Source of the DNA: Liolophura sinensis
Lineage: Eukaryota; Mollusca; Polyplacophora; Chitonida; Chitonidae
NCBI RefSeq assembly: GCF_032854445.1
Contig: NC_088297.1
Span: forward strand, 4,341,991 to 4,405,990
DNA length: 64,000 bases
Reading direction: 5' to 3'
Numbering within the stretch: position 1 is the stretch's first letter; every line of letters begins with the position of its first letter. Shown piece after piece: positions 16,581-61,311 of the stretch. The notes under the pieces are model-generated. The model was not told where the DNA came from, made no database searches, and saw only the letters and a program-made list of their open reading frames with translations. Made by a program: the position numbers and the translations under genes.

Positions 16581-16791
16581 ATGAGAGGGAATTCTGGACA
16601 AGCCATAGTGTGTGTCCAATGTCTTCAGTGTTTACGTCAGCAGTATGTCCCTGTTAGGCTGGGCAGTTCCTGGAGGAAGCGGGTGCTGAAGAGAGAAGCC
16701 ATTAAGGATCGTGTGATTCAGTATGCTGGTGACACGGCTCACCAGACACAGCGTGTATACGTGTGGGGTCTGGCAGCCACTGGGGCTTTAG
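16581..16791 (+). CDS. RCC1L: RCC1L exon 1 (presequence and first WG motif)
   Basis: 70 codons plus 1 base, from MRGNSGQAIV to WGLAATGAL|G; the donor gtaagc starts at 16792. Reading through the donor meets a stop within four codons. Confidence 0.93.
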
Positions 16792-19700
16792 GTAAGCTCA
16801 CATAGGGTGTTTATTATGAGGATAGGCTACCAGTGCGACTTTAGGCAAGCTCACACAGGGTATGTACCTGTGGGGACTGGCTGCCATGGGGTCTCTAGGT
16901 AAGCTCACACAGCTTGTGTGCGTGTGGGGACTGGCAGCCACTGGGGCTGTAGGTAAGCTTACACAGGGTGATGCATGCGGGGACTGGCTGCCGTGGGGTC
17001 TCTAGGTAAGCTCACACAGCTTGTGTGCGTGTGGGGACTGGCAGCCACTGGGGCTGTAGGTAAGCTTACACAGGGTGATGCATGCGGGGACTGGATGCCA
17101 CTGGGGCTCTAGGTAAGCTCACACAGGGTGTGTACGTGTGGGGACTGGCTGCCATGTGGGCTCTAGGTAAGCTCACACAGGGTGTGTACATGTGGGGACT
17201 GGCTTCCATGTGGGCTCTAGGTAAGCTCACACAGGGTGTGCACGTGTGGGGACTGGCTTCCATGTGGGCTCTAGGTAAGCTCACACAGGGTGTGTACGTG
17301 TGGGGACTGGCTATCATGTGGGCTCTAGGTAAGCTCACACAGAGTGTGTACATGTGGGGACAGGCTATCATGGGGGCTCTAGGTAAGCTCACACAGCGTG
17401 TGTACATGTGGGGACTGGCTGCCATGGGGGCTCTAGGTAAGCTCACACAGTGTGTGTACATGTGGGGACTGGCAGCCATGTCGATGTCACACAGCATGTA
17501 CGTGTGGGGACTGGCTGCCATGGTAGCTGTCAGTTCAGTGCTATTGTTTAGGGACAAATATGACAACCATGATATGAAACAAGCTGTTATACAAAGTTTG
17601 GGATCTCTGAAGTGAAGTGGTTAGCGCGCTGGTGCAGAACAATGTCTCAGGGACCCCCAGCACCGCGCGTTCAAAGTCCAGAGCTGGACTCTTCAAACAT
17701 GGGAAGGTCTGTCAACAATCTTTCACTGTTAATGGATATCTCCCTGGCTGTCCAGTCATGTTTTTTTGGGTTCCTCCCGCTGTAATGCTGACTAACCTTG
17801 CATAAGTGTAATTTTCTTGACCTCCTTTCTTCAGGAATAAGAAGTTATCTGCGGCCAGAGGCTAAAGGTCAGAGAATGTTGAGATATCAGCCGCGACCAG
17901 CTCTTCAGACATTCTGGGATGGAAAACATACAAAGGTAAGGTTATGCTAGTCCAAAATACGTTTGTTGGTCGTAACCTAACCGAGCCTCCACAACAACAA
18001 TTATGCACTCCAGATTTTTTTGTTGGGGTTTTGATTAAACATAATTTTCCTCTGCATTTTAATTTCTTTTAAATCCTTTATCTTTTTCACCAGCCAGATA
18101 AAAGGTCATTACTGACCCACACTAATTTTTTTTTATAGAATCAGATTACGACCAAACAAGGAATTTTGTACAAATAGCATGAGGTTTATTTTGATGTAAG
18201 AAATAAGTTTTCTGGGGGCGATAAGCTGTGCGCGCTTTGCCACATTCAGATGTGGTTTTTACACTAATCTTGGAATATGGCAATATGTACCTCATAAAAT
18301 TTAAAAATAAAATTTTTGATGGCACCCTTAGTTTTGTTTTGCTAAATCTTGTTCTGTAAATAACGCATGGTCATACAATTCTTCCTTGTCTCCTAAGCCT
18401 AAATCGGTGTTTCACCATGGATGATCGCGTAATTCAAACGGGATTTTCTCAACTTTCTTACAGGTCAACACTCACAGTTCACCATTCAACATATTGATTG
18501 AGAATTCATGTAACCATGTAATGTGGAACTCGTTGAGTTCCTTTTCACCTGTAATAAAATGGTCCAAAGCTAAGAACACTTTTGTTCTTTGTTCTCCTTT
18601 ATTATGTCACTCTTATCTGTGTACTTGTGCTCATAAAACACGAGGTACACATGCACTGGGAGGTCACAGAAGAAAACAATGTGTTGTGCTGCAATTTGCG
18701 TCTTGTGTATTGCTCATCCTCGAGTCTCCGATTAACACCTTCTGCTTTCAAGGGCGCTAATGTGATAAAGCATAACTCCCCAATTTTGTCTTGAATTTTC
18801 CAGGTTGAAGATGCAGCTTGTGGATATGGTTTCAGTGTTTTTATGACCAAGAACAGAAAATGGGGTGTGTACGGTACAGGGATTAACACAGAATCTCAGC
18901 TGGGAGTCCATGAGTACCCCAGAAACACAGGTTTGTAAAGGTCCTCAATCCGGAAAATCAGAAAAGCTGCTATGGGGGCCTCCGTGGCTAAGTGGTTAGC
19001 ATGCTAGCGCAACACAGATGACTCCAGCCCCTCTCGCCAGTGTGGTTGTTTGTCCCACCACAATGCTCACTGCTGTTGTTAAAGTTAAATAAATGGGTAA
19101 GTTGACTCATCCAGCAAACTGTGGATGGTCGTGGGTTTCCCCCAGGCTCTGCTCGGTTTCTTCCAACCATATTGCTGGCTGCCGTTGTCTAAGTGAAATA
19201 TTCTTGAGTACGGTGTAAAACACCAATCAAATCAATAAATAAATAAATAAATAAATACATGTTTACTTTTAAGACCATACACATAAATCATGCAGCAAAT
19301 GTACTATTCCAGGGGTTATGGGCTGTGAGAAAGTGTTAAGAACTTTGACTCAGACCAAGGAACAAAAACGCTAATGACCTGACAATAGGGACCATCTTTA
19401 CTTTTACAGGTAGGCTTTTAGAATACATCATTGAACCAGTGCGGATTGACCTTCCTTTGAAGGCTCCAGACACCACCAGAGTGAAGCACGTGGCTTGCGG
19501 TCGAGCACACACGCTAATTTTGACGGACAAGGAAGGAGGTAACAAAAAGTAAAAAAAAATTAAGTCTATCATCTCTCTGTCCCCATCTGTTTTTGTACAT
19601 GGCTGTGTCGGTGTCCAGTGTGGTTAAAGTTTTTGGACCAATCTTGTCGCTGTGAGTTCAAGTCCAGCTCATGCTGGCTTCCTCTCCAGCTGTACATGGG

Positions 19701-22700
19701 AAGGTCTGACAGCAACCTGCGGATGGTTGTGGGTTTCCGCCGGGTTCTGCCCAGTTTCATCCCACCGTAATGCTGGCCGCTGTTGTACAAGTGAAATATT
19801 CTTGAGTACGGCGTAAAACACCTGTCAAATAAATAAAATAAATAAATGAAGTTTTTGGCCAATCATAGGATTGGAGTGGCCACCCATGGTAGCAGTTTGC
19901 ATATGAAAGACCAGGATGTTTTTTTACCTCCTACAGCTGTAGCTCAAAATTTCCTTGGCCATTCACAGGACTGCAGTCGCCACCCATAGTACATGGATTG
20001 CCAAATGTAGTTTGCAATTTGCATATCAAAGACATCCGCGGTAAATTTGTGCACGAACTCCCATGACTGCTCAATAAATTACAACTCCATAACATAAGAA
20101 ATCACTGCTCTGCAATCCTCGTGCATGTAATAGACAGTCATGGTTGTAACAGCATAATAATTTGGGCCTTTCTTGTTGATTTGATGGCAAGATGGTAACA
20201 TTATCTAATTTGATACTCTCATGCACAGATATTAATCTTGATGATTCTACTTTATTTTGGTTTAGAGGTTATATTCGAGTGTATCACATGACTTGAACAT
20301 TATGCAGTTTTATGAACTGCTCAGGCGAGCCACCATCATTCTCTGAACATCTTGTTTTACATTAGACCTTGAAGAGACAATTTTAGCTGTAGTTCAGATC
20401 AGTCACCAATGCGGTCGCTATGAGTTCAAGTCCAGCTCATGCTGGCGGCCGTACGTGAGAAGGTCTGTCAGCAACCTGCGGATGGTCGTGGGTTTCCCCC
20501 AGGCTCGGCCCGGTTTCCACCCACCATAATGCTGGCCGCCGTCGCTCCAGACACCACCAGAGTGAAGCACGTGGCTTGCGGTCGAGCACACACGCTAATT
20601 TTGACGGACAAGGAAGGAGGTAACAAAAAATAAAAAAAAATGAAATCTATCTTCTCTCTGTCCCCATCTGTTTTTGTACATGGCTGTGTCGGTGTCCAGT
20701 TTGGTTAAAGTTTTTGGACCAATCTTGTCGCTGTGAGTTCAAGTCCAGCTCATGCTGGCTTCCTCTCCAGCTGTACATGGGAAGGCCTGACAGCAACCTG
20801 TGGATGGTTGTGGGTTTCCGCCGGGTTCTGCCCAGTTTCCTCCCACCGTAATGCTGGCAGCTGTTGTACAAGCGAAATATTCTTGAGTACGGCCTAAAAC
20901 ACCTATCAAATAAATAAAATAAATAAATAAAGTTTTTGGCCAATCATAGGATTGGAGTGGCCACCCATGGTAGCAATTTGCATCTGAAAGACCAGGATGT
21001 TTTTTTACCTCCTACAGCTGTAGCTCAACATTTCCTCAGCCATTCTCAGGGCTGCAGTCGCCACCCATAGTACATGGATTGCCAAATGTAGTTTGCAATT
21101 TGCATATCAGAGTCATCCGCGGTAAATTTGTGCACGAACTCCCCATGACTGCTCAATAAATTACAACTCCAGAACATAAGAAATCACTGCTCTGCAATCC
21201 TCATGCGTGTAATAGACAGTCATGGTTGTAACAGCATAATAATTTTGGCCTTTCTTGTTGATTTGATGGCAAGATGGTAACATTATTTAATTTGATACTC
21301 TCATGCACAGATATTAATCTTGATGATTCTACTTTATTTTGGTTTAGAGGTCATATTTGAGCGTATCACATGACTTGAACATTATGCAGTTTTATGAACT
21401 GCTCAGTCGAGCCACCATCATTCTCTGAACATCTTGTTTTACATTAGACCTTGAAGAGACAATTTTAGCTGTAGTTCAGATCAGTCACCAATGCGGTCGC
21501 TATGAGTTCAAGTCCAGCTCATGCTGGCGGCCGTACGTGAGAAGGTCTGTCAGCAACCTGCGGATGGTCGTGGGTTTCCCCCAGGCTCTGCCCGGTTTCC
21601 ACCCACCATAATGCTGGCCGCCGTCGTATAAGTGAAATATTCTTGAGTACGGCGTAAAACACCAATCAAAAAAAAAAAATTAGATCAGTCCTCAGATCAG
21701 AGTTGGTGTCAGAACTACTTCACGTTTACATGTGCTTATTTTTCCTGACATCCTGAAAAGAAGCAAGATGTGCAAAATTACCCCAATTTGTGAAAATAAC
21801 TAGTTATCAGTTAACCTCTTCCTCAAGTTGTCTTTGTATTGAAAAAATTTCTCAAAATTAAACATGTGATTTTAAAAAATGAATTATTTACTTTACACCA
21901 TATAGAGAGATTACACAGAGAATTTGGGTTATTGTAGACTGGATGAATATCATAATTTAACATGTTACTTATGGTTATATTTTTTTAAACTAGTTTTTAT
22001 TAATTATTTTTGTACTGGTGTTATTTTTCCATATCTTTTTCTTTCCAGTCTTCAGTATGGGTAACAATGGCTATGGTCAGTGTGGGAGATCCATCATTGA
22101 ATCAGAGCAGTACAGGTACGGTTGTCATGGTAATAAGGACTATGGTCTATTTGGGTGAATTGTCATTGAATCAGAGCAGTACAGGCCTGGTTGTCATGGT
22201 AACAATGGCTATGGTCAGTGTGAGAGATCCATCATTGAATCAGAGCAGTACAGGTACGGTTGTCATGGTAACAATGACTGTAGTCTATTCGGGTGAGTTG
22301 TCATTGAATCAGAGCAGTACAGGCCTGGTTGTCATGGTAACAATGACTATGGTCATTGTGGGCGGTCCATCATTGAATCAGAGCAGTACAGGTACGGTTG
22401 TCATAAGGACTATAGTCTATTTGGGTGAGTTGTCATTGAATCAGAGCAGTACAGGCCTGGTTGTCATGGTAACAATGACTATGGTCATTGTGGGCAGAAA
22501 ATCATTGAATCAGAGCAGTACAGGTATGGTTGTCATGGTAACAAGGACTATAGTCCTATTTGGGTGAGTTATCATTGAATCAGAGCAGTACAGGTATGGT
22601 TGTCATGGTAACAAGGATTACAGTCTATTTGGGTGAGTTATCATTGAATCAGAGCAGTACAGGTACGGTTGTCATGGTAACAAGGACTATAGTCTATTTG

Positions 22701-25700
22701 GGTGAGTTATCATTGAATCAGAGCAGTACAGACCTGGTTGTCGTGGTAATAAGGACTATAGTCTATTTGGGTGAGTTATCATTGAATCAGAGCAGTACAG
22801 GTGTGGTTGTCATGGTAACAATGGCTATTGTCAGTGTGGGCAATCCATAATTGAATCAGAGCAGTACAGGTCTGGTTGTCATGGTAACAAGGACTATAGT
22901 CTATTTGGTTGAGTTATCATTGGATCAGAGCAGTACAGGCTTGGTTGTCATGGTAACAGTAGCTATGGTCAATTTGGGTGAGATATCCTTGAATCAGAGC
23001 AGTACAGGCCTGGTTGTCATGGTAACAGTTGCTATGGTCAATTTGGGTGAGTTATCATTGAATCAGAGCAGTACAAGTATGGTTGTCATGGTGACAGTGG
23101 CTATGGTCAATTTGGGTGAGATATCCTTGAATCAGAGCAGTACAGGTATGGTTGTCATGGTAACAATGGCTCTGCATGGTCATGATCATGGTAACAAGGG
23201 AAAAAAGAGGAAAAACAAAAAAAGTTAATGCGAAGTGGATGGCAAGCAACAAACAAGTAAAATGATAAACGTACAAAGGTAAAAAATTTACTGAAGCCAG
23301 CAGAAATATTCGAACTGCCTTGACTGTGTGATATTATTCACACGATCAAACAGAAAAGGAGCAAACAACAAGCAAATCAGCCTGATAAGACAGAATATAT
23401 ACACATGGGCCTTACTGTTAAATATTAAAGTATTGGTATTTTTACCTGCAGGGGTAACCCGCTGATCCACTGCATCGCAGAGTTACCCGACAACATCAGT
23501 CAGGTGAGTGCTTATGGTGCTGCAGCCAGTCTCCAAAAACCTACCTGGTGGTATCTCACTGTGCCTGCCATTTAGCGGAAAGTGCCGTAAAGTTTCAAAA
23601 AAATTCTCATGCAACAACAATTAACGCCCATTATTTCTATTCACTTGACGTGTGATGAGCTGTCTTGCAAGGAGAACTTTGCATGGTAGAAGAACAGTTT
23701 TGTGCGCAAGTCATACAGAAAAATGCCAGTCAGAACTCGCCAATGTCATGAGCTTTTCTTTGTTGGTTTTGCATGCGGAACTTTTTTAACGGCTCTGCTG
23801 GCAGATTTAATCAGCAGAGGCATATTTTTACATAATTAACATTTCCATTTTTTTTTTTCAAAACGTTGGCCTTCTGTTATTTTTTAACATGAGTCAGTTC
23901 CGCAGTGTCAACCCAGAATATCTAAAACATTTCTCATACGGCCATGGTGTATTTACAGTGCATGGCTCAGTGGTTTGTGTCGGATTCTTTAAGTTAGAGA
24001 CATTCTTCGCAATTGGTCAACGGAGTAACCATTAATTAATTTCTGTTGCAGGTGATTTGTGGCCCTGATCACAGCTTCTTCCTGACTGAAACCGGGCAGT
24101 TGTACAGCTGTGGACTTGGGGCTGATGGACAGACAGGTACTGGTATGATAACAAATCAGATAGGCAGGTAGGATAATGAGTTAGACAGGCAGGTAGTTGT
24201 ATGATAACAAATAAGATAGGCAGGTAAGATAATGAGTTAGACAGACAGGTACTTGTATGATAACAAGTAAGATAGACAGGTAGGATGATGAGTTAGGCAG
24301 ACAGGTACTTGTATGATAACAAGTAAGATAGACAGGTAGGGTAATGAGTTAGACAGACAGGTGCTTGTATGATAACAAATAAGATAGGCAGGTAAGATAA
24401 TGAGTTAGGCAGACAGGTGCTTGTATGATAACAAATAAGATAGACAGGTAGGATAATGGGTTAGACAGACAGGTACTTGTATGATAACAAATAAGATAGG
24501 CAAGTAGGATAATGAGTTAGACAGGCAGGTAGTTGTATGATAACAAGTAAGATAGACAGGTAAGATAATGATTTAGACAGACAGGTACTTGCATGATAAC
24601 AAATAATATAGACAGGTAAGATAATGAGTTAGACAGACAGGTACTTGTATGATAACAAGTAAGATAGACAGGTAGGATAATGAGTTAGGCAGACAGGTGC
24701 TTGTATGATAACAAGTAAGATAGGCAAGTAGGATAATGAGTTAGACGGACAGGTACTTGTATGATAACAAGTAAGATAGACAGGTAGGATAATGTATTAG
24801 ACAGACAGGTACTTGTATGATAACAAGTGAGATAGACAGGTAGGATAATGTATTAGACAGACAGGTACTTGTATGATAACAAGTGAGATAGACAGGTAGG
24901 ATAATGTATTAGACAGACAGGTACTTGTATGATAACAAGTGAGATAGACAGGTAGGATAATGTATTAGACAGACAGGTACTTGTATGATAACAAGTGAGA
25001 TAGACAGGTAGGATAATGTATTAGACAGACAGGTACTTGTAAGATAACAAGTAAGATAGACAGGTAGGGTAATGAGTTAGACAGACAGGTACTTGAGTGA
25101 TAAGTATCGATTTATTTGTTTGATTAGAGTTTGACATTGTACTCAAGAATATTCCACTTATTCTATGACGGCCAGCATTATGGTGGGAGGAAACCACGAC
25201 CATCTGCAGATTTTTGGGAGACCTCCCCATGTGCGACCAGGATGATATTGTGTCAGACAGGTAGGATATTGTGTTTGACATTAACGATGTTGAACTGTTG
25301 TTGTACTTTCAGGAGCAGGACATTTTGACTGTGTCGGTGTTCCACAACTGGTGCAAGGAGACATTCAAGGGGAGACAATCGTGCAGGTGTCATGTGCAGG
25401 AGACTGTGTACTGGCATTGTCAGGTATATGTCAGTGATCTACAAGACATCCTACGCTTTTCTTGTTAACATCAAAAAACAGGAAAACATTTATTATATTT
25501 ATATTTATTGCCAGCGTGATTTTTACGAATTGATAATGGAGCAGACATCAAAAGCTGATGTTTCCATGGTTGATAACTCTGCCCTACTTGTTACATAAGG
25601 TAATGCGGTCAGTATAATGCAACTGACTACATGACTTATTAATTAATTAACTAATTTATTTATTTATTTATTTGATTTTATGCTTTACTCAAGAATGTTT

Positions 25701-28700
25701 CACTTATATGATGGTGACCGGCATTATGGCGAGAGAAAACCGACCATCCGCAATTTGCTATCAGATCTTGCCACGTACAACTACATTTTTTTTTTTATTT
25801 CATCACACCTTGTTCTCATGGCTGTGTTTGAAATTTCAGAAAATGGTGACGTGTTTGGATGGGGTAACTCAGAATACAATCAGTTGTCTATGGTATCCCA
25901 GGATACACAGGTGGCTGTTGCTAAGCACCTGCCAATGAGAGGCCTTGGCAGGGTATCCATGGTAGCATCAGGGGGTTCCATCTGTGGTGTGCTCAATGGT
26001 AATTATTCTTTGTCTTCTATTTATACTGACCCTTGTGTTTTAAATAACACTTTCTTGCATAACTTTTTAGAATGTTTATAAAGTTGGGAGGAAATTTATG
26101 TTAAGAAATTTGAAATTGTTTCGGATTGGACAGTGATTGGACAATTAAGATGTTCTTAGATAATGCTAATGGGTTGTTCAGTCTGCATCCTGACAGCAAG
26201 ATCTAAGGATCCAAGCCTTGTTGGTTCAGCTAGGGCATAGTGTCAGTAAGTTTGTCAGGTACCTGGTAAAAAGCGGAGGTTATACCCGGACACTGCATTC
26301 TGGTTTCTTTCACCCATAGACTGCTCCCACCCCCCACACACACACACAACCCCACCCACCTACCTTGGCCAGGTGGTTAGTGTGCTAGCACAGCATAATG
26401 ACCCAGGTGCCTCTCATCAAAGTGATCGCTGTGAGTTCCAGCTCAAGCTGGCTTCCTCTCGGGCTGTATGTGGGAAGGTCTGTCAGCAACCTGCGGGTGG
26501 TGCATGGATTTTCTGCCACCATAATACTGATCATCGTCTATAAGTGAAATATTCTTAAGTACAACGTAAAACGCCAATCAAATAAATAAATAAATAGATT
26601 CATTTATAAACTTGACCACTTTCATGGGTATGGTAACTTTTTGAGAGTGGCATTTAAAAAACAACCAAATATATAACGAATTTAATACATCGAATGCAAA
26701 TGATCCGCCCTCAAATATTTCATTTGATTTGCTCGAAATTGCAAAATTAGTGGGCTAATGATATGTAACATTAATGAACTAATTGTTAATTCTTTGTAAT
26801 CATGATTTGTGGAATTCATCTGATACGTCAGAAGAAAATCTTTGTGAGGTGTAAGAATGGGTAATTGTTCACTGTTTCAGACAAAGGCAGTGTGTTTGTT
26901 TGGGGATATGGAATTCTGGGTAAGGGCCAGATGGTAGAATCCAGTTCTGCTCCAACACAAATTCCGGACACACTGTTTGGGAAACATGACTTCAACACGG
27001 ACAGTAGAGTCTCCATTCTGAGATCGGGTCTGTCATATTTCGCAGCCATAACATGTGAGTATAACAGAATGTGGATCATTTATAGTCTTGTCACATCTCT
27101 CATGATAATAATGATGATTTGAGTCATGTCTCCCAAGATAATATGACAATTTGAGTCACGTCTCGCAAGATAATATGACAATTTGTGTCACGTCTCCCAA
27201 GATAATATGACAATTTGTGTCATGTCTCCCAAGATAATATGACACTTTGAGTCACCTCTCTCGAGATAATGACTATTTGAGTCATGTCTTCTGAGATAAT
27301 ATGACATTTTGAGTACTGTTTCTCTAGGTAATACAACAATTTGAGTCACCTCTCCCATGATAATACAACAATTTGAGTCCTGTCTCACAAGACAATGTGA
27401 CAGTTTGAGTCCTGTCTCTCAAGGTAACATAACAGTTTGAGTCCTGTCTCACAAGATAATAAAACAATTTGAGTCCTGTCTGTCAAGGCAATATAACAAT
27501 TTGAGTCCTGTCTCGCAAGATAATATAACAATTGGAGTCCTGTATCTCAAGGTAATATAACAATTTGAGTCCTGTCTCTCAAGGTAATGTAACAATTTGA
27601 GTCCTGTCTCTCAAGATAATATAACAATTTGAGTCCTGTATCTCAAGATAATATAACAATTTGAGTCCTGTCTCTCAAGGTAATATAACAATTTGAGTCC
27701 TGTCTCTCAAGGTAATATAACAATTTGAGTCCTGTCTCTCAAGGTAATATAACAATTTGAGTCCTGTCACAAGATAATACAACAATTCAATTCCTGTCTC
27801 ACAAGATAATGTAACAATTTGAGTCCTGTATCTCAAAGTAATATAACAATTTGAGTCATTAGGTTTGTCAGGTACCTGGTGAAGTGTGGTGGCTTTCCAA
27901 GGAAACTGTTTGGTTTCCTCAACACCATAGCCATCATAGACTGTACATGAGAAGTTCTGGAGTCCATGAAAGGCAATAAACTCCAGTCCAGTAAATAAAT
28001 AAATAAATTATTTCTTTGATACATGTAAGAGGGGAGTTTTGAGTTCAATATTGTTTATTGCTCAAGGTGAAAACAGGGTCCCACTGTATCATGTGACCTG
28101 TCAGGAAGGTCGGACACCTATATGTGATCACATTGGTATAGGGTAGAACAAAAAAGATGAAACGTGAGGAGTTGAAAGTTTGTGTGTCTGGAAAATGGCA
28201 AGACAGATAATGGGTAAATTAATGTCATACAAAACTTGCCTATTGCTTTTGACAAATCACATATAATATAACTGGACTGTCTTTACCTTTAGTGACAAAA
28301 GAGTTCAAACTTAAAGCTCCCCTATTGTGATATATGTATGCACTGCCTCCCCCGTGAAATTCACATGCTCTGCTTTTGAAGGCTTGCATATTGTTGTTGT
28401 ATTTGAATGTCTTCAAGATATGCAAGAGATGTGAGATACATGCAGTGTGACATTTAACGATACTTTTTAATATTTTTGTTTGTTTTTCTCATATGAAGCC
28501 TCTGGAGACCTCTACACCTGGGGTAAAAACAGGGGAGGTAATCTTGGATTGGGACAAAGGAATGACCAGTTCTTCCCCTTTAAGGTAGGAGATGATTTTT
28601 GCTTTACTACGCAGAAAAACCTCCGTGGCACGGTACCTCGTAGCTTTAAATTAGAAGTTCAGAGAGATGCTGGGTAGAAATATTAAGATAATATGATGAA

Positions 28701-29876: not shown

Positions 29877-29879
29877 AGT

Positions 29880-31190
29880 TTCAACAGCTACTATACAGGC
29901 TGTCACAAACCTTCGCTAGGTACTGGATTTACAGTTAAAACATCAGGGCTGTGTACGCACTGTCACAAGCCTCTGCTGGATTCTGGATTCACAGTTAAAA
30001 GTACCAGGACTGTATACAGACTGTTAGAAAGCTTTGCTGGATGCTGGATTCACAGTTAAAGTACCAGGACTGTGTACAGACTGTTAGAAGGCTTTGCTGG
30101 ATGCTGGATTTACAGCTAAAGTACCAGGACTGTATACAGACTATTAGAAAGCTTTGCTGGATGCTGCATTCACAGTTAAAGTACCAGGACTGTATACAGA
30201 CTGTTAGAAAACTTTGCTGGTTGCTGCATTCACAGTTAAAGTACCAGGACTGTGTACAGATTGTTAGAAAGCTTTGCTGGATGCTGCATTCACAGTTAAA
30301 GTACCAGGACTGTATACAGACTGTTAGAAAACTTTGCTGGATGCTGGATTTACAGTTAAAGTACCAGGACTGTATACATACTGTTAGAAAACTTTGCTGG
30401 ATGCTGGATTTACAGTTAAAGTACCAGGACTGTGTACAGACTGTTAGAAAGCTTTGCTGGATGCTGGATTTACAGCTAAAGTACCAGGACTGTATACAGA
30501 CTGTCACAAAGCTTTGCTGGATGCTGGATTCACAGCTAAAGTACCAGGACTATATACAGACTGTTAGAAAGCTTTGCTGGATGCTGGATTTACAGTTAAA
30601 GTGGCAGGACTGAATATAGACTGTCACAAAGCTTTGCTGGATGCTGGATTTACAGTTAAAGTGGCAGGACTGTATACAGACTGTTAGAAAGCTTTGCTGG
30701 TTGCTGCATTCACCGTTAAAGTACCAGGACTGTATACAGACTGTTAGAAAGCATTGCTGGATGCTGGATTTACAGTTAAAGTGGCAGGACTGTGTACAGA
30801 CTGTTAGAAAACTTTACTGGATGCTGGATTTACAGTTAAAGTACCAGGACTGTATACAGACTGTTAGAAGGCTTTGCTGGATGCTGGATTTACAGTTAAA
30901 GTACCAGGACTGTATACAGACTGTTAGAAAGCTTTGCTGGATGCTGGATTTACAGCTAAAGTACCAGGAATGTATACCGTCTGTCACAAACGTTTGCTGG
31001 ATGCTGGATTTACAGTTAAAGTGGCAGGACTGTGTACAGATGTCACAAAGCTTTGCTGGATGGTGGATTTACAGTTAAAGTGGCAGGACTGTGTACAGAT
31101 GTCACAAAGCTTTGCTGGATGCTGCATTCACAGTTAAAGTACCAGGACTGTGCACAGATGTCACAAAGCTTTGCTGGATGGTGGATTGAT
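29880..31190 (+). repeat. 60-bp minisatellite in the RCC1L 3' UTR
   Basis: About 21 copies, starting a few bases after the stop codon. The unit contains gctttgctggatgctggatt and tacagttaaagtaccaggac. The 60-bp period (20 codons) gives long ORFs on both strands, rich in Cys/Trp/Gln or Ser/Cys/Phe; these are artefacts of the period. The first two units are the most diverged, as expected at the edge of an array. Confidence 0.93.
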
Positions 31191-31420
31191 GACTTTTGAC
31201 AAGGAGAAATGAAGAGTGACAGGATAGGTTACTGTCTCACCACTCCAACTTGTGGGCTATTTATATTAGAAAACACCTTGGATTTATTTCGACTGGGACA
31301 AAAAAAAAAAAAAAGAGCCCAGATCCATCAAAATTGTCAGTCATTTTTGTTGGGAAGTATTAATTGGCTTGATCAACAAACCAGAGGTAACTGTGAGATA
31401 TATGTATTATGAAATGAGTA

Positions 31421-31426
31421 AATAAA
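31421..31426 (+). promoter_or_regulatory. Candidate RCC1L poly(A) signal
   Basis: AATAAA lies about 1.55 kb after the RCC1L stop, past the 60-bp 3' minisatellite and before the next SINE. If it is used, the minisatellite is part of the mRNA 3' UTR. Confidence 0.45.
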
Positions 31427-31526
31427 CTGATGTGAAGCTTTAACGTAAGCTTTACATGAGTTGTTGCCCTTGATCCAGATGTCTCTCAGAGTGATCTCCC
31501 TTACCTGTACATATTTCATTAGTTAA

Positions 31527-31838
31527 AGTGAGTGAGTGAGTGCTTTGGGTTTAACGTTGTACTTAACAATTTTTCAGTCATGTGACTCCGAAGGAGTCTT
31601 TAGGATGCACGTATGTGTAATGTGCCTCCTTGTTGCAGGACAAATTTCCACCGCTCTTTTATCAGCTATACAGCTATTTTTATCAAGTGCTGCTTCATTG
31701 AGATGACCTACCGAAGGCATGTAAGCCGCCCTACCCAAGCCATCATACTGATACGGGGGTCAGTCAGTCGTTGCACTATCCCCTTAATGCCGAACATGAC
31801 TGAAAAATTGTTAAGTGCGACGTTAAAACCCCAGGCAT
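31527..31838 (-). mobile_element. SINE-2, partial, joined to a reversed SINE-2 tail
   Basis: gtgagtgagtgctttgggtt through atccccttaatgccgaacat, then an abrupt switch to gactgaaaaattgttaagtg, the opposite-orientation tail, and (actc)n. Confidence 0.82.
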
Positions 31839-31930
31839 TCACTCATTCACTCACTCACTCACTCACTCACTCACTCACTCACTCACTCACTCACTCACTC
31901 ACTCACTCACTCACTCACTCACTCACTCAT
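31838..31930. repeat. (ACTC)n microsatellite at the edge of SINE-2
   Basis: About 23 perfect actc units directly after a SINE-2 tail (taaaaccccaggcattcact). Confidence 0.95.
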
Positions 31931-32002
31931 GTTACTGGATTGATCCATGTTGATTTATTTTTTGATGGGAAAATTTTGCCATGTATAAGAATAGTAATAC
32001 AC

Positions 32003-33000: not shown

Positions 33001-33002
33001 AA

Positions 33003-37042: not shown

Positions 37043-37212
37043 CTATGCGTAATACTCGCGGTCAGGTGCCTTTTGGTATGCGTATGCTCCGCGTGCTTTT
37101 GTGGGTTCATCTAGTGCATAGCTTCCCTCGTCCTTCTTCCTCATGCGGTAAACAATAAACATTACCAGTAAAATGGCACACAGAAGTCCAACCACTGCCC
37201 CTCCAATGATAC
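37043..37212 (-). CDS. Syndecan last exon: TM helix and cytoplasmic tail
   Basis: 170 nt, phase 1 in, ends TAG at 37043-37045. The TM helix starts [16 protein letters not shown] and is followed by C1 [15 protein letters not shown], a short V region and C2 EYYA. The usual C-terminal PDZ ligand is EFYA, so Tyr replaces Phe here. I chose the acceptor at 37213-37215 because it is the copy directly joined to the cytoplasmic tail. Confidence 0.95.
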
Positions 37213-40200
37213 CTGTAAACAATAAACATTACCAGTCAAATGGCACACAGAAGTCCAACCACTGCCCCTCCAATGATACCTGTAAACAATGAACATTACC
37301 AGTAAAATGGCACACAGGAGTCCAACCACTGCCACTTCAATGATACCTGTAAACAATGAACATTACCAGTCAAATGGTACACAGAAGTCCAACCACTGCC
37401 ACTTCAATGATACCTGTAAACAACGAACATTACCAGTAAAATGGCACACAGAAGTCCAACCACTGCCCCTCCAATGATACCTGTAAACAATGAACATTAC
37501 CAGTCAAATGGTACACAGAAGTCCAACCACTGACCCTCCAATGATACCTGTAAACAACGAGCATTACCAGAAAAATGCAGCCCAACTATCTGTGAATCAC
37601 ACACATGCACATTTACATGTATTCACCATTCTTTTATAGCAGTTTGTGGTTCCACAAATAATTTAATGTCTACTCTCCAAAACTTGAACGCATTCTCAAA
37701 CCACCCATCAATTACTGATGAACTTTCAGATAGCGGTGGAAGACAAACCGTGTGAGCACGTTTGTCTGCTTGTGGTCACCAACGTCCCACAAACAATAGC
37801 AGGTGAGTGTCTAGGAATTCACTATCCAAGGCCAGATTTGAACCCTCATCTCTCGTGCCAGCTATTGTGTGTCTTGAATGAAGCTGTTCTGTCACATCCA
37901 GCTTCCCATGTACATGCATGTGTTAGATTTGAATCAATTTGATTTGATTGGAGTTTTACACCATACTGATATATATTTCACTTGATATATGACGGCGGCC
38001 AGCATTATGGTGGGAACCAACCCGGCAGAGCCTGGAGGAAACCCACGACCATCCGCAGGCTGCTGGTAGGAGTATGTATTAGATCTATACCTGACAATCT
38101 ACTAGTGACAGAAGGGTAATTCGACTGCCCAAGTTCCAGACAACTGATGGAATTATTGTCTACCATGCTGACAGTGGTTCTGTCCAATATTGCCTTACTG
38201 TCATTCGTCAGTCAGAAAACCAAAAACTTGAGTTTTAAAAATCCATCATGGAGAGGCAGTAGTAGGATTTGAACCTCTGACACTTACCTGCCAGTATTCC
38301 AGGCTGTCCCATTATGGTAACTGGCTTGTTAGCCTGATTTCCTTTACTCTCTGCTTCTTTTCCAACTTCATTTGTTTCTTCTTCTTTTTTCTCATATGAA
38401 TCGTCATCATCATCTGGAGACAAAAGAGAAAAAAGTGGCAAAACTGAGAAATAGAGGATGTGAGTTATATCAAAAGACGTACTCTATTTGCCTTAAACAA
38501 TTTGCCTGCAAAAATGCTTTTCTAGGGACAAATAAAATGTATGTATGTATGTATGTATGAATGTTTCTTGTATAAAAGAATTTAGAATTCCAACACTTTT
38601 TCACCCTTACCACACAACCCTACTGGAGAGGGTAATTTGGATGATAATCCTCATAGCTGCTTTTAGATTATTTTGTGTATAGTATGTACTGGCCAATGTT
38701 CTAAATCACACAAAAAAGAATTACCTCCCTTGAGGTCACTCTCCAATACAAATGGAACATTTAACAGAGCATGATCAGGTGGTCAGGTGGAACTCTTGAA
38801 AATGGCTGAATGATAATAATGGCAAGACAACAACACCTTAAACGCAAAGGTGCGCTTGCTCACACCCACCCAGCTTATGGGCCTGTAAAAAGCAAGCAAA
38901 GATTTTGTCTCGAACAGAACACAATTGCCAGAGGAAATTATCAAACTGTCGCTAGTACTTACCTGGTATTTTTCTACCGACTTCATTACCTGGCTCGGTG
39001 GCTTTTGTTTCAGGGGTTCCAAACTGCAAGATAAAGTCTCCCTGGTTACTTCACTTAAAAAATAAAACTCAACAAAATTCAAAAAAAAAAAAAAAAAGCC
39101 CCCAATCCTAGGTATAACATAACCATAAAGCTGGATACTTGTTAAAAACAAACTTGGATTTCTTTTTGATCTCATGTTCTAACTTTTAGCATTACTTACT
39201 AAAGATTTACATCAGTGACTTATTATTCTGGTTGTTGTTTAGCTCTGTGGAGTTTTAGGTCAAGTGACAATGGTTAGGCTTATGTGCAAATGAAAGACGT
39301 GTGCCCAGAGTAAACCACTGCCACTGGCCAGGTTCTCTGCAGCTGGACTTGAACCTGTGATCTCACTGGTCAGATGCTGATCAACAGGTAAAAGGAGAGC
39401 TGCTTACGTTATACGTTACAATGGTTAAGGAAGCAATCTTTTTCTCTTACGTTTGGCTTGACTGTCTTTGTCACAGTGAAATCTGGAACGATCGCTGGTC
39501 CATCAGTAACTGCTGAAATTAAAACAAAAAACATTTTTATGCTCACATGTACATAACACACAATGACGGAAAATAAATAATGTATCTGGGTTGTAGGTCC
39601 CACTTCAGGCCAATGTCAAACAAACAGAAACAAAATTTCCACAAGCTTTAGAGTGAAGCAGGTTAGTTTAGTCTTGCATCGGGTTGTCACAGAGATATTT
39701 CAAAACAAAAATTCACGTCTTTTCCTGACTGTAATTCTTCAATCTTTCCGCATGTCTGCAAGGTGTTTATTCAAGCACGCTTCTACGGCATTATTCTGTG
39801 TACACTGGTAAAATTATACTTTTAGTGAAATTGAAATTGGCCAATCCAACCAATGTAGTTTTATTTCAAAATCAAATTAAAAGTGTGCATAAAGTCCACT
39901 GAAAGTTGCTCTTTCATACGCCAAAAGGTTGAGGCACTAGGGTAAATCTGACATCTCATTACCACAGAAAATGACAAAATCTGAAGAAATTTCGTAGTTC
40001 AGATGTTCCACCATCAGGCTGGATTAATTAAGACAAGAAATTAAAGAAATCATCCAATGACTGCTCATGTAAAGAACATGAGCCAAAATACTAATGTTAG
40101 CACATACCGGTGCACATTAAGAACTTCTGAGATGAGAAAATTTATCGCTATTTTAGAACTTTTTCCACAATTTTCCACAGGCAGGGCTTTTCTTATGTGA

Positions 40201-46200: not shown

Positions 46201-49200
46201 TTATTCCTTATCGTTGATAAGAAGCCTTAGCTAACAAATCTGGCTGATTAGGAAGCTGACAGGCTGTCAGTAAAATGTCAAAACAGCATTACATCAAAGA
46301 GCCAGCAGATTCATAAAGGCCAGGTGTACAGTGAACCTGTAATCCAGGTGTAAAGCTACCAGGCTTGGATGCTGGATATTACAGGCGACTACCATACAAC
46401 TATAAACTTTTAATCACAAGGTAAATATAAACTTTAAGAGATGAAATCCAATTTTGCCTATGTACATGACAAAACTCAACTGAGAACTGGGACCACAACG
46501 ACATTTTGTGACTTAAGTCAAAATTTAAAACCTTGTCACAATGCTTAGTTTTCGGTACTGAAATTTTGACACATTTGTCTTAAGATGACATTAATAAGGT
46601 GGTCAAATTTTTAATTAAATGATCAAAATTAAGTTCTAAAATCATATTTCAAATTTTTGACTTGAAGTTCGAACTGGCTTTATGGAATCAAATCCTGAGG
46701 CTGATTGTCCACCCTTATCGGTCAGGGTACTCTCGTCAGGGGAATGGATACACAAAAGTTTCTATACATGTACAATGTACAAGGATAAGCATTTAATACC
46801 TGGATTGGTTGGATTTATGATTGTTGCCACTTGGACAAAAACGACAAATATACATCCACAGGTACTGTACACCTACAGCACTACAATGCACACTACCAAA
46901 TCTAAGCCAGCAACTAAACAGCCGAGAAAGGTTTTCTATGTATTTGTAGTCTGAATTATATACATATATGCCCTGCCCTTTTAATCTGTCCAATCTGCCT
47001 TGTCTCGGCTCCCTTCCTTTACGATCTTAAAAATGTCAATGTGAAGTCAATAAACCTTAACGACATAGTCATGCTTACTGAACGCACACAAAAGCCTCAA
47101 TGCAAGGCTTGATCATTGGCAAGCTTGCATAAATCCCTCAACTTATTGTTATGATGCCAAGGGCCGTGTGAAAGATCACTAATTATATGTATCACGTACA
47201 TGTAATTGTCGTTGTACACTGTATGCTGCTGTGCACGAGTAAATGGCATCATGTATATAGCACTACCTTTGTGTATGGAAGAGCAGGCTGACATTAGGGA
47301 CAATGCAACCCTGTATATAGCACTACCTTTGTGTATGGAAGAGCAGGCTGACATTAGGGACAATGCAACCCTGTATATAGCACTACGTGTGTGTATGGAA
47401 GAGCAGGCTGACATTAGGGACAATGCAACCCAGTATATAGCACTACCTGTGTGTATGGAAGAGCAGGCTGACATTAGGCACAATGCAACCCTGTATATAG
47501 CACTACGTGTGTGTATGGAAGAGCAGGCTGACATTAGGGACAATGCAACCCTGTATATAGCACTACCTGTGTGTATGGAAGAGCAGGCTGACATTAGGGA
47601 CAATGCAACCCTGTATATAGCACTACCTGTGTGTATGGAAGAGCAGGCTGACATTAGGGACAATGCAACCCTGTATATAGCACTACCTTTGTGTATGGAA
47701 GAGCAGGCTGACATTAGGCACAATGCAACCCTGTATATAGCACTATGTGTGTGTATGGAAGAGCAGGCTGACATTAGGGACAATGCAACCCTGTATATAG
47801 CACTACGTGTGTGTATGGAAGAGCAGGCTGACATTAGGGACAATGCAACCCTGTATATAGCACTACGTGTGTGTATGGAAGAGCAGGCTGACATTAGGCA
47901 CAATGCAACCCTGTATATAGCACTACCTGTGTGTATGGAAGAGCAGGCAGACATTAGGCACAATGCAACCCTGTATATAGCACTACCTGTGTGTATGGAA
48001 GAGCAGGCAGACCATTGCATGAAGGGGATAGTGCAATGACTGGTTGACCCGTATCAGTATAATGGCTTGGTCGGGGGCATCTTACTTGCCTTCGGTAATG
48101 CATCTCAGTGAAGCAACACTAGATAAAAGAGTGGTAGAAATATGTCCTGCAACGGTGAGGCACAATATGTGCGCTCTAAGGATTCCTTCGTCGTCATATG
48201 AGTGAAAAATTGTTAAGTACGACGTTAAACCCCAAGCACTCACTCAAACCATACCATCTACATCTAGCTTATTATGACTGCTGTAATACATGTTATCATA
48301 ACTGCAACTAATCACTGGTTGAGAGTGGAGATACCTGTACAAGTAGGGGATCTGAGATTAAACCTGATGTACTGCCAACACCTAAATGCTGTTGCCAAAT
48401 CAACCACACTCAAAAACACGGACCAACCCTGACCGCAGTTACCAAACCAACCACACTCAAAAACACAGACCAACACATGAATGCAGTTGCCCAACCAACC
48501 ACACTCCAAAAACACAGACCAACACATGAATGCAGTTGCCCAACCAACCACACTCCAAAACACTGACCAACACATGAATGCAGTTTCCAAACCAACCACA
48601 CTCAAAAACACTGACCAACCTTGAGTGCAGTTGCCAAACCTGATGGCACTCACCACACTTGAAGTACATGTAACATGTCGAAGACACCAGACATGACACC
48701 ACACCAAGTCAAGTTATACTGACACCAGGCCAACCAGTGCTGTTCCCTTGGACTAACCTCTCAGTGCTGAGCGCCAGACGAGGCAGAAACAAGCAGCGTC
48801 TTCAGTAACTAAATGTGAAAAGAACTTCAGCATTTGTTATACATGCTTCTAGATCCAATGGCGCATGTACATCCCACATTAAATATGCACCTGTCTCACA
48901 ATCCCCTTCCATCTGCACCTATCTAAATCCTCTTTTTTGTGACAATTGTAAAGTAAATTTTTATTGCTAACAAATACTATTATACATACATATGTGTACC
49001 CCACCACCCCCCACACCCCAATCCTTTCACCCCAAACCATATATTTTAAGGTGGAGTTATCTGATTTGTCTGATTTGTGTTTGTTTAGGGGTAATCAACA
49101 ATACAACTACATGTCACGCATGAGCCTGGTTACAGTTACATGTGCGTGTTAGGGTGGAACATGCCCAACAGAGTCTAGAGCAAATCCTTACACCGCCAGA

Positions 49201-52160
49201 AAAATAGACAGCACCTGTCAGGCGTGAAAATCTATACACATCAGACCTGGTTTGACAAGGGAGAGTTGTTTTAGGCACAACCCCTTAAACCACTTAGCCA
49301 GTGAAGACACAGAACAAACATATTACCTCAGCATGACACCTTGAAGCCTTTATTTTAAGACAACCTTCACAGACCATATTGTGTGCCTAGTCTGCAAGGA
49401 CCGCAGATGGCATCATGCCACTTAGCTGAATGAGTTATTGTGGAAACCCCATCTATAAGCCTCTAGTCTTTACCAACCCAGAAGATAGGTGGCTATAATT
49501 TCAACTGTCAGTGAAGCATTGTTAGCAGAAAATACACCCAGAAGATAGGTGGCTGTAATTTCAACTGTCAGTCAAGCATTGTTAGCAGAAAATACACACA
49601 TACAGTTGATGACATACACGTAAAGGTCTGAGCAGGCTGAAAAATTGAACACAAGGGAAATTTACCTTGATGTAAGGTTACTTTAATAGTCTACTGACGG
49701 CCATATAATAGTTTGCAAGGCAAAATCAGTCCAGAACTCATTTGACAGCTGGAGCCGCATCTTCTATGTTTCATACAGGATTACTTCTGGGAGGATAGGT
49801 GTAGATAAATTACAACACATACATGAATAAAGCTGTGCCTCAACAATGACTATGCTCATGTGAGCAGGGACAATATGTTAACAACCGTAGTTACCTCCCC
49901 TGATGTACATGTACATGTATGCTAGTCCAGCAAAAGAAAAGCAGAGTGAAAATCTTTACAGACACCAGTGTTTCCAATGTAACGACATCTGGATTTATTT
50001 ACAAATTACAACATGGGCAGGTCTGTCAGCAACCTGCAGATGGCTGTGGATTTCCTACCACTACAACGCTGGCCTCCATCATGTAAGTGAAATATTGATG
50101 AGTATGGTTTAAAACACTTATTTATTCCTTTAAAAATAAATAAATAAATAAATCAATAAATAAATAAACAAAAATTACATGTCGAAATCTCACCGATAAG
50201 TGAAACTTTGAATGTTGTATTGATTGATCGAATGATTCAAAGTTGTTTGATGCATGTCACACTCAACAATTTTTCACACCTCTAAAAAAGCAGTCAGTTT
50301 TAGCGACATACCCTGGGGAAATCCTTGACTTGATGCTGACAGACATTCCCAAATATGATGTACATGTACACACACGATATTAAGGCGGAAAGACAAGAGC
50401 TCTTCAATGAGCGTTAATTTATTTATTTATCTGTTAAGTATCTGTTAAGTGTTTTACACCGCTCTCAAGAATATTTCACTTATATTACAGCGGCCAGCAT
50501 TATGCAATGAACGTTAGACAGCACAGATAGGCATAGTTGTAAACAAGGCACCAGGTGTATAATTAGCTGCAACACGTAACGATGTACATGTACCCTGACA
50601 GCCAATAAAATACCCTGTCTTCAGCCTTAAAATAAACCCTGATATTATTGCTTTTTGAAGATCACCATTTCTTGTCTTGCAATCACAATTAAAACGAAAG
50701 CTTCTAAACTGACTCAAGGGATTAAGGCAAGACAAAAGCAAAAAAAAATAACCAGTAATTAGCCGTTTCTTTCCAGCGTCCATATTTGTGTGAATTTCTA
50801 CGACAGATGATGTACAGGTACAAGGACTACTGAAATTCAGGATACAATGTACGTGTATATGTATGTGTTTTGAAAAAAAAAATGTTTTAGCAGTAAGATT
50901 GTATTCAGCTTTATGTAGAAGTATGATATGATGAATGATTGATTGACTGAGTGGTGTTTTATTGTGCCGTACTCGAGAATATTTCACTTATACGACGGCG
51001 GCCAACATTATGGAGGGTGGAAACCCACGACCATTCACAGGGTGCTGGCAGGCCTTCCCACTTACGGCCGGAGAGGAAGCCAGCATGAGCTGGACTTGAA
51101 CTCACAGCGACCGCATTGGGGAGAGACTCCTAGGCCATTACGCTGTGCTAGTGCGGTAACCAACTGAGCCATATTTTAGTTTAAGCAGATAAACACCAGG
51201 TGAAACCATTAAGAAATGGGGTAGTACATATGTGTATGGTAAACAAGCGGAAATAAAAGTGGATTTCGAGCTTATGGGGTCATCGATGTTGATGGTATCG
51301 TCATCATGATGATGATGCTTGTGAGGTCCACATACAAGTACAGTAAACTAGGGTAAGTAAAGTGAATGTTGAACTTAATGGGTCATCGATGTCGATGGTA
51401 TCGTCATCATAATGATGATGCTTGTGAGGTCCACATACAAGTACAGTAAACTAGGGTAGGTAAAGTGAATGTTGAACTTACCGGGTCATCGATGTCGATG
51501 GTATCGTCATCATAATGATGATGCTTGTGAGGTCCACATACAAGTACAGTAAACTAGGGTAAGTAAATTGGATGCTGAACTTACAGGGTCATCGATGTCG
51601 ATGGTATCGTCATCATAATGATGATGCTTGTGAGGTCCACATACAAGTACAGTAAACTAGGGTAAGTAAAGTGGATGCTGAACTTACAGGGTCATCGATG
51701 TCGATGGTATCGTCATCATAATGATGATGCTTGTGAGGTCCACATACAAGTACAGTAAACTAGGGTAAGTAAAGTGGATGCTGAACTTACAGGGTCATCG
51801 ATGTCGATGGTTCGTCATCATAATGATGATGCTTGTGAGGTCCACATACAAGTACAGTAAACTAGGGTAGGTAAAGTGAATGTTGAACTTACAGGGTCAT
51901 CGATGTCGATGGTATCGTCATCATAATGATGATGCTTGTGAGGTCCACATACAAGTACAGTAAACTAGGGTAAGTAAAGTGGATGCTGAACTTACAGGGT
52001 CATCGATGTCGATGGTTCGTCATCATAATGATGATGCTTGTGAGGTCCACATACAAGTACAGTAAACTAGGGTAGGTAAAGTGGATGTTGAACTTACCGG
52101 GTCATCGATGTCGATGGTATCGTCATCATGATGATGATGCTTGTGAGCTTTATTCCTCTC
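37043..52160 (-). CDS. Syndecan with two thyroglobulin type-1 domains, 5' end missing
   Basis: Exons in transcript order: 52160-52098, 42809-42689, 41720-41448, 40838-40638, 39512-39451, 39023-38963, 38413-38288 and 37212-37043. They total 1077 nt (358 aa plus stop) and all phases agree (0, 1, 1, 1, 0, 1, 1). Order of parts: His/Asp-rich segment; acidic GAG-attachment segment with three SG sites (EGSGP, YGSGA, PGSGD); TY-1 domain 1; TY-1 domain 2; Pro/Thr linker; acidic DDDDDSYE juxtamembrane region; TM helix; cytoplasmic C1 [11 protein letters not shown] region, and C2 EYYA. Cytoplasmic C1 and C2 identify a syndecan, a heparan sulfate proteoglycan co-receptor of the plasma membrane. The two TY-1 domains are not part of the usual syndecan. 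No signal peptide exon was found, so the gene is incomplete in the window. Confidence 0.9.
37146..37580 (-). repeat. 67-bp minisatellite built from the syndecan TM exon and its acceptor
   Basis: Six copies counting the real exon, with tandem acceptors (read as - strand tttacag|GTATCATTG) every 67 bp at about 37212, 37279, 37346, 37413, 37480 and 37547. Copies alternate between a type with an open TM frame (CCATTTTACTG) and one with a stop (CCATTTGACTG). Confidence 0.95.
37935..38072 (-). mobile_element. SINE-1 fragment in syndecan last intron
   Basis: tttgatttgattggagtttt to accatccgcaggctgctggt. Confidence 0.88.
38288..38413 (-). CDS. Syndecan juxtamembrane acidic exon
   Basis: 126 nt, phase 1-1. 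Codes [20 protein letters not shown] and on to MGQPGILAG. Acceptor tttgtctccag, donor gtaagtg. Confidence 0.88.
38963..39023 (-). CDS. Syndecan linker exon
   Basis: 61 nt, phase 0 in and 1 out; codes [20 protein letters not shown]. Acceptor atcttgcag, donor gtaagt. Confidence 0.8.
39451..39512 (-). CDS. Syndecan linker exon with NAGNAG acceptor
   Basis: 62 nt, phase 1 in and 0 out. Codes [20 protein letters not shown] then N. The acceptor reads tttcagcag, so splicing may use either AG and include or drop one codon. Donor gtaaga. Confidence 0.8.
39735..39944 (+). repeat. MITE-like repeat A, copy 2
   Basis: attcttcaatctttccgcat ... tacgccaaaaggttgaggca; the ends are imperfect inverted repeats. 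Confidence 0.72.
40638..40838 (-). CDS. Syndecan exon with thyroglobulin type-1 domain 2
   Basis: 201 nt, phase 1-1. Six cysteines: [33 protein letters not shown] and PNC. Acceptor tgtttttcag, donor gtaagt. Similar to domain 1 (PRCT.TGEFEK.QCR), so the two probably arose by exon duplication. Confidence 0.93.
40905..41050 (+). mobile_element. SINE-1 fragment in syndecan intron
   Basis: ggccgtaagtgagaaggtct to aacacctatcaaataaataa. Confidence 0.9.
41448..41720 (-). CDS. Syndecan exon with thyroglobulin type-1 domain 1
   Basis: 273 nt, phase 1-1. After a Pro/Thr-rich stretch come the six TY-1 cysteines in order: [30 protein letters not shown] and RPDC. The CWCV motif and GEF/QC spacing are diagnostic. 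Acceptor tatgtgcag, donor gtaagt. Confidence 0.93.
42530..42600 (-). mobile_element. SINE-1 tail fragment
   Basis: tttgattggtcttttacgcc to cttatacagcattacgg. Confidence 0.8.
42689..42809 (-). CDS. Syndecan GAG-attachment exon
   Basis: 121 nt, phase 0 in and 1 out. Codes [20 protein letters not shown] and on through [20 protein letters not shown]. Ser-Gly pairs in acidic context are heparan sulfate attachment sites. Acceptor ttgttgtgtag, donor gtgaga. Confidence 0.85.
42882..43058 (-). mobile_element. SINE-1, 5'-truncated, with 13-bp target site duplication
   Basis: Poly(T) tail to gacttgaactcacagcga (truncated at box B). Flanked by caatataaaaaga at 42869-42881 and 43059-43071. Confidence 0.95.
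43112..43232 (-). mobile_element. Degenerate SINE-1 fragment
   Basis: ttttttacaccatactcaag ... gaaacccaccaccatcctta. Confidence 0.72.
43505..43930 (+). repeat. Dispersed repeat D, copy 2 (syndecan intron)
   Basis: gtaaaattttcctgatgtga, gttgaatcaggcagatgcga, gtggaaggaacagaaatatt; matches 28680-29050. Confidence 0.65.
44160..44372. repeat. MITE-like repeat B, copy
   Basis: Shares aaagcactttttaaagtgga, aattatttctctacacccc and gttctctctgaatgcttcaa with 45878-46105 and, reversed, 7735-7895. Confidence 0.7.
45135..45235. repeat. Short tandem repeat of gtgtaacatgat
   Basis: Five to six irregular copies of gtgtaacatgatgtgtaaca. Confidence 0.75.
45247..45432 (-). repeat. MITE-like repeat A, copy 3
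   Basis: attcctcaattcttcaattt ... acaccttgcaaacatgtaaa + aaaagttgaagaatta. Confidence 0.72.
45878..46105. repeat. MITE-like repeat B, copy
   Basis: aatcttcaacctattaaacc ... gaaaaagttgaagatttacg. An internal poly(C)/poly(A) run at 45950-45970. Confidence 0.7.
47240..48010 (-). repeat. 60-bp minisatellite in syndecan intron
   Basis: About 13 nearly identical copies (gtgtatggaagagcaggctg, acattaggcacaatgcaacc, ctgtatatagcactacctgt). The 20-codon period leaves all units open on both strands, producing ORFs of 277 and 307 codons that show no protein family features. Copies differ mainly at two or three fixed positions. Confidence 0.95.
48035..48246 (+). mobile_element. SINE-2 fragment in syndecan intron
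   Basis: gactggttgacccgtatcag to ttaaaccccaagcactcact; directly follows the 60-bp minisatellite. Confidence 0.87.
48385..48640 (-). repeat. About 50-bp minisatellite in syndecan intron
   Basis: Five units with accaaccacactccaaaaaca and gaccaacacatgaatgcagt. It abuts a reverse copy of the third SINE-like family (48640-48800). Confidence 0.85.
48640..48800 (-). repeat. Third SINE-like family, copy 3
   Basis: gaagacaccagacatgacac ... cctctcagtgctgagcgcca, the reverse of 15985-16110. Confidence 0.75.
50010..50165 (+). mobile_element. SINE-1 tail fragment
   Basis: gggcaggtctgtcagcaacc to (aaat)n. Confidence 0.8.
50415..50506 (-). mobile_element. SINE-1 tail fragment
   Basis: (attt)n, ttttacaccgctctcaagaa, cagcggccagcattatg. 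Confidence 0.82.
50938..51172 (-). mobile_element. SINE-1, near full-length
   Basis: gattgattgactgagtggtg to gtaaccaactgagcca. Confidence 0.9.
51277..52157 (-). repeat. 103-bp minisatellite built from the syndecan His/Asp exon and its donor
   Basis: Nine copies counting the real exon, at about 52099, 51997, 51894, 51792, 51689, 51586, 51483, 51380 and 51277. Most copies keep the donor (gaccctgtaagttc); in the 51380 copy and the terminal 51277 copy it is degraded. All replace the exon start by other sequence ending cctcacaag. Two copies (51792, 51997) have lost one base. Confidence 0.95.
52098..52160 (-). CDS. Syndecan His/Asp-rich ectodomain exon
   Basis: 63 nt, phase 0-0; codes [20 protein letters not shown] then P. 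Acceptor tgtttttgcag, donor gtaagttc. Phase 1 would give a stop, so phase 0 is required. It seeds the 103-bp array next to it. Confidence 0.72.
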
Positions 52161-61300: not shown

Positions 61301-61311
61301 GGTACATGTAA

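Follow-up and report, generated by a model that had tools for sequence, protein, structure and literature searches.

Five exon-intron borders in two genes of the chiton Liolophura sinensis lie inside tandem arrays whose unit joins exon sequence to the border's own splice site. They are a real feature of the window, by which we mean the whole stretch of 64,000 nucleotides of scaffold_11 analysed here. The assembly first appeared under the name Liolophura japonica, which was afterwards changed to L. sinensis as a correction (PMC11068029, PMC12441733). The reading that we favour, with a probability of roughly three in four, is that these arrays are minisatellites of the type called mirages in amphioxus, produced by tandem duplications that were tolerated at existing introns. 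A tandem duplication would by chance have covered the border of an intron that was already present, and the spliceosome, to judge from the predicted reading frames, would have kept using the copy of the splice site nearest to the exon. Because this proximal site stayed in use, the extra copies would have fallen into the intron, where they would be close to neutral. They would then have multiplied and been homogenised like ordinary minisatellites, making the intron longer, and purifying selection would have held the exon copy single. By inference, the introns predate the arrays, RNA splicing takes the proximal site, and the arrays are without function.

The borders were placed using rebuilt exon models, which are predictions resting on intact reading frames and homology. 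The 12 exons of the RCC1L gene, on the forward strand, are separated by GT-AG introns and join into one open frame of 459 codons followed by a stop. Residues 39-458 of its protein match an RCC1-like G exchanging factor-like protein (PDB 5xgs, E 7.8e-132), and the alignment is colinear across the ends of exons 1, 5, and 7. RCC1L thus aligns with 5xgs through all three exon ends that bear arrays, which indicates that the exon part is ancestral. The syndecan gene, on the reverse strand, was rebuilt from an exon of the His/Asp ectodomain to the stop codon as five exons in frame, the His/Asp exon fusing in frame with the downstream ones; its C-terminus corresponds to PF01034 (3.4e-26). Between the glycosaminoglycan-attachment exon (EGSG, GYGSG, PGSGD) and the juxtamembrane exon of this gene sits an exon with a thyroglobulin type-1 domain (40638-40838, reverse strand; PF00086, 4e-15; 201 bp, phase 1-1), grouped with the syndecan pieces at 42689-42809 and 37043-37212 on the same strand. 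A literature search listed 8 of 71 matching papers, and none of the 8 mentioned a thyroglobulin type.

A preliminary description of this DNA had listed five arrays with units of 54, 69, 56, 103, and 67 bp at exon borders. All five were recovered by TRF with these periods, and the exon models confirm that each spans a border (Table 1). Four of the borders are donors (exons 1, 5, and 7 of RCC1L, at 16791, 22115, and 24136, and the His/Asp exon, at 52098), and one is an acceptor (the syndecan TM exon, at 37212). The same description had all junctions carrying AGGT, which is the case for four of them; the His/Asp exon ends in CCG/GT. In every one of the five arrays the exon side holds at most one unit. 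Among the intronic copies, in tables limited to copies with at most 8 mismatches in 24 bp, GT is kept in 43 of 52 donor copies (11/12 for exon 1, 9/15 for exon 5, 17/17 for exon 7, and 6/8 for the His/Asp exon), and CAG/G in all five acceptor copies of the TM array. The early copies of the exon 5 array (22116-23168, forward strand) have donors alternating between GTACGG and GCCTGG, a two-unit (138-bp) higher-order pattern.

Table 1. Predicted exons of RCC1L and syndecan and the repeats around them, in window coordinates (a slash marks the exon-intron border).
Feature	Position	Strand	Description
RCC1L exon 1 (coding)	16581..16791	+	donor TTAG/GTAAGC; one open frame, PDB 5xgs match
54-bp array	16746..17480	+	unit 1 = last 46 bp of exon 1 + donor
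RCC1L exon 4	19410..19538	+	donor GGAG/GTAACA; 12-exon model
Two-copy tandem duplication, 1,081 bp	19463..21626	+	97% identical; begins within exon 4
RCC1L exon 5	22049..22115	+	donor ACAG/GTACGG; 12-exon model
69-bp array	22060..23168	+	unit 1 = 56 bp of exon 5 + donor
RCC1L exon 7	24052..24136	+	donor ACAG/GTACTG; 12-exon model
56-bp array	24128..25103	+	unit 1 = last 9 bp of exon 7 + donor
32-bp array, RCC1L intron 10	27096..27857	+	begins 42 bp past exon 10 donor; non-straddling
60-bp array, ~21.6 copies	29892..31187	+	begins 15 bp past RCC1L stop codon
Syndecan TM + cytoplasmic exon	37043..37212	-	PF01034; acceptor TTTACAG/GTATC
67-bp array	37148..37577	-	65 bp of TM exon + acceptor AG
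103-bp array	51256..52147	-	exon-side unit = 50 bp of His/Asp exon + donor
Syndecan His/Asp ectodomain exon, 63 bp	52098..52160	-	donor CCCG/GTAAGT

The window holds a sixth border case, absent from the preliminary description: a direct duplication of 1,081 bp in RCC1L, whose second copy repeats the 3' end of exon 4 with its donor (near 20620). It is easily missed because it exceeds the TRF period limit used. The 60-bp array downstream of the RCC1L stop codon straddles no splice site. Four more long arrays (13107-13804, 47252-48012, 53383-53954, and 61305-62192; units of about 20-114 bp) contain no known exon border, the exons mapped in the window being those of RCC1L and syndecan. A literature search with a SINE 20-mer gave no match.

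Straddling arrays recur in other, unrelated genes. We searched the genome (609,464,459 bases, 632 contigs) with profiles of the RCC1, myosin head, kinesin, and kinase families. The first sample comprised 153 hand-picked exon rows—45 of 70 for RCC1, 44 of 81 for myosin, 44 of 132 for kinesin, and 20 of 138 for kinase—chosen as those in or near the fetched loci (152 inside), which merge into 103 intervals of 206.7 kb. A border was kept if the profile match ended within the model and if its splice signal scored above 3, and 111 donors and 106 acceptors passed. In full context, arrays straddle 8 of these donors (7 in windows of 280 bp) and 4 of the acceptors. The second sample consisted of 100 further kinesin and myosin donors, for which the counting criterion was fixed in advance; its borders are new but come from the same families, and DNA of the first sample recurs in a few of its windows. 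Arrays straddle 5 of the 93 donors that passed the filter, which brings the pooled count to 12/204 (5.9%). The cases fall in RCC1-family, myosin, kinesin, and kinase genes. Within the fetched windows, L108 is the only counted case with more than one unit in the exon, and it is a weak one (2.4 copies of 30 bp); in two counted cases of the second sample the fetched window begins inside the array, and the exon share is a lower bound. These counts suggest that arrays of this kind are widespread in introns of the L. sinensis genome.

The position of the border within the unit varies from array to array. The exon share of the unit in 16 donor arrays has a mean of 0.52 and is compatible with uniformity (KS p = 0.66); among the 16 values, two are lower bounds, and for two arrays the shorter of two TRF periods was taken. 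The set combined the arrays seen in full context with those of 12 donors, sampled or from the window, whose support is better than weak; L108 was omitted. Since the exon share fits uniformity, the breakpoints seem untied to the splice site or to AGGT. A random phase, together with an exon that holds at most one unit, fits duplications that arose at random, with purifying selection then acting on the exon.

The coverage of exon borders by tandem repeats shows no peak. Across donors, it rises from 2.3% at 60-30 bp inside the exon to 7.8% and 8.8% on the flanks of the border, and further into the intron it reaches 14.5% (100-150 bp) and then 15.2% (700-1,200 bp). The acceptor profile climbs from 1.0% to 16.3%. 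Coverage is thus 1-2% in exons and rises to about 15% in introns, with borders falling below the intron level (12/204 donors versus 980 of 9,720 intron windows, or 10.1%; P = 0.024). Plain coverage is an unfair measure because selection removes arrays over the exon interior, and we therefore added controls based on placement, in which the fair measure is how often the edge unit of an array takes in a border.

By this measure, straddled donors are more frequent than expected. Uniform seeding (38 arrays in 162.7 kb, mean unit 59 bp) predicts 1.4% of donors and matched windows predict 2.8% (273/9,720), for which the 12/204 observed have tail probabilities of 4e-5 and 0.013, respectively. Acceptors alone do not reach significance (4/106 versus 1.5 expected, P = 0.06). 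When the 38 arrays of the sampled loci were placed at random wherever they did no harm, 2.3 were expected to straddle a border and 6 did (P = 0.018). The same placement in the window gave 0.5 expected and 5 seen (P = 7.5e-5), in a post hoc test of a window chosen for the pattern, with 19 arrays hand-picked from 59 TRF rows. The argument that chance would rarely hit splice sites five times thus holds in the window, with this proviso, and the excess elsewhere is smaller. Arrays away from exons, which had been named as evidence against a tie to borders, are in fact common: 32 of the 38 sampled-locus arrays and 14 of the 19 window arrays touch no known border, counted on known exons in loci where further exons may exist.

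The starts of arrays are also crowded near donors. We analysed all 211 windows, with the border set at the end of the match, and compared them with control windows drawn solely from RCC1-family and myosin loci (44 after merging). Relative to control, starts are at 0.34 between 47 and 30 bp inside the exon, rise to 4.0 over its last 30 bases, and stand at 1.9, 4.9, and 4.4 in the successive bins of the first 100 intron bases; no starts were seen from +100 to +150 bp. Bootstrapping over loci gives ratios of 1.9 for exon-side starts (95% interval 0.8-4.2), 3.1 for the first 60 intron bases (1.0-7.2), and 2.3 from -47 to +60 bp (1.1-4.6). An excess of about 2- to 4-fold near donors, extending through the first 100 intron bases, is therefore likely but not secure: the controls differ in its size, the interval for exon-side starts includes 1, and the figures were computed without control for sequence age or transposon content near exons.

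This excess bears on the most serious alternative, which the preliminary description had put forward as a local process favouring borders. Exon-intron borders, chiefly donors, would be mutational hot spots that actively seed minisatellites, for example through DNA structures coupled to transcription or splicing. The straddling beyond allowed random placement in other genes, the frequency of straddled donors relative to both expectations, the crowding of starts from the last 30 exon bases to +100 bp, and the location of four of the five window arrays at donors all point this way, and the first three of these also count against uniform seeding under the reading we favour. But the excess is modest, the deficit of starts deeper in the exon and their absence from +100 to +150 bp do not fit well, acceptors by themselves give no significant signal, coverage has no peak at borders and is lower there than in introns, and breakpoint phase is compatible with uniform. 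We regard active seeding as doubtful, and give slightly less credit still to the specific proposition that chiton borders, mainly donors, are true duplication hot spots where about one donor in 17 bears a mirage. The excess may have other sources, as exon-flanking DNA may be the oldest and least disturbed by transposons, or exon ends may be somewhat prone to duplication. In 2-kb composition, the coding strand is rich in G in the stretches of the RCC1L arrays and of the TM array, and it is not in that of the His/Asp array; an explanation by R-loops or strand skew was dropped on this informal comparison.

Which copy of the splice site gives an intact protein can be read from the gene models. Splicing from any of the listed downstream copy donors of RCC1L exons 1, 5, and 7 leads to a stop at codon 75, 226, and 269, respectively, and with any of the six GT-bearing copy donors of the His/Asp array the translated piece stops at codon 46. 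In the TM array, all five upstream acceptors ruin the syndecan C-terminus. Only one site per set thus gives the normal protein. The proposal that such duplications are tolerated if one working site stays is supported by these premature stops at the tested downstream donors and by the single unit, at most, in the exon. Both observations are as expected from tolerated duplication at existing introns, the reading that we favour.

The same results make it very unlikely that the extra donor and acceptor copies have a role in splicing, as decoys or regulated alternative sites kept by selection. The high retention of GT and AG in intronic copies would agree with such a role, as would the splice columns of exon 1, which are unusually invariant in its intronic copies: only 0.04 of 9-bp windows are at least as conserved. 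This last result counts against the reading that we favour, as it could mean constraint. But the corresponding values for the other three arrays are 0.70, 0.23, and 0.91, GT is lost in 6 of the 15 intronic copies of exon 5, and use of downstream donors leads to stops. We rejected special conservation of the splice columns as a general property because the signal is inconsistent across the four arrays. The exon copy is slightly farther from the intronic consensus than the intronic copies are in all four (0.148 versus 0.106, 0.145 versus 0.100, 0.071 versus 0.054, and 0.039 versus 0.022), by small differences that may not be significant; the consensus excludes the exon copy, and 17 of 18 copies were used for exon 7 and 8 of 9 for the His/Asp exon.

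None of the arrays reaches the far end of its intron: the acceptor is array-free in RCC1L introns 1, 5, and 7 and in the His/Asp intron, and so is the donor in the TM intron. With the other splice site outside the array in all five introns, the arrays appear to have lengthened pre-existing introns. We consider it most improbable that the duplications make introns or shift their borders through repeated AGGT proto-splice sites, an idea raised in the preliminary description and published for other genes (PMC4974935, PMC2891723). Four of the five window borders carry AGGT, but the His/Asp border lacks it, and the phase of the unit relative to the border is variable. Both splice sites of an intron gained in this way would need to come from copies of the duplicated segment, whereas here one of the two lies elsewhere, and we rejected AGGT-driven intron creation.

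The closest known counterparts are in amphioxus. The mirages described there (PMC3087553, PMC3902484) are tandem duplications, resembling minisatellites, that cover exon-intron borders at either end of an exon; they are found in Adh3, the globins BflGb6 and BflGb9, TnC, and PGBD5, with regular splicing by RT-PCR. Chiton arrays share with them tandem units that hold exon sequence plus its own splice site, occurrence at both exon ends, AG or GT in many, not all, copies, and a copy at the cluster boundary that stays outside homogenisation. The four features of mirages that we looked for are thus present: a unit spanning the border, involvement of 5' and 3' borders, partial retention of signals, and an unhomogenised boundary copy. 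The differences are that the chiton is a mollusc, from a different phylum, with up to 17 intronic copies; that several of its gene families were sampled at random exons, whereas mirages were described in single genes; and that the chiton arrays are known from the sequence of one assembly, whereas mirages also have RT-PCR data on splicing and count length instability between alleles or cells among their features. Intron gain from AGGT-containing segments, as in the papers cited above, shares with the chiton arrays the tandem duplication of sequence with a splice signal, but there the duplicated copy becomes the intron, whereas here an existing intron is lengthened. Ordinary intronic minisatellites resemble the chiton arrays in unit size, copy number, and homogenisation; unlike them, the first unit of a chiton array has exon sequence and a working splice site. 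On this comparison, and with a pattern not confined to two genes, we consider that the chiton arrays belong with the known amphioxus mirages. No report of exon-border arrays in molluscs was found among titles and the beginnings of abstracts, which is weak evidence of absence.

Mirages at about 6% of the sampled mollusc donors suggest a recurrent route of intron lengthening, and the arrays are natural tests of how the spliceosome chooses among a dozen near-identical donors. Should the excess at borders survive a control for sequence age, it would argue for a mutational process linked with how genes are structured. If borders were indeed hot spots, introns would grow outward from exon borders by a process of independent evolutionary origin from the amphioxus one, and ladders of donor copies would be present in many genes, where an order-dependent choice of donor would be directly testable.
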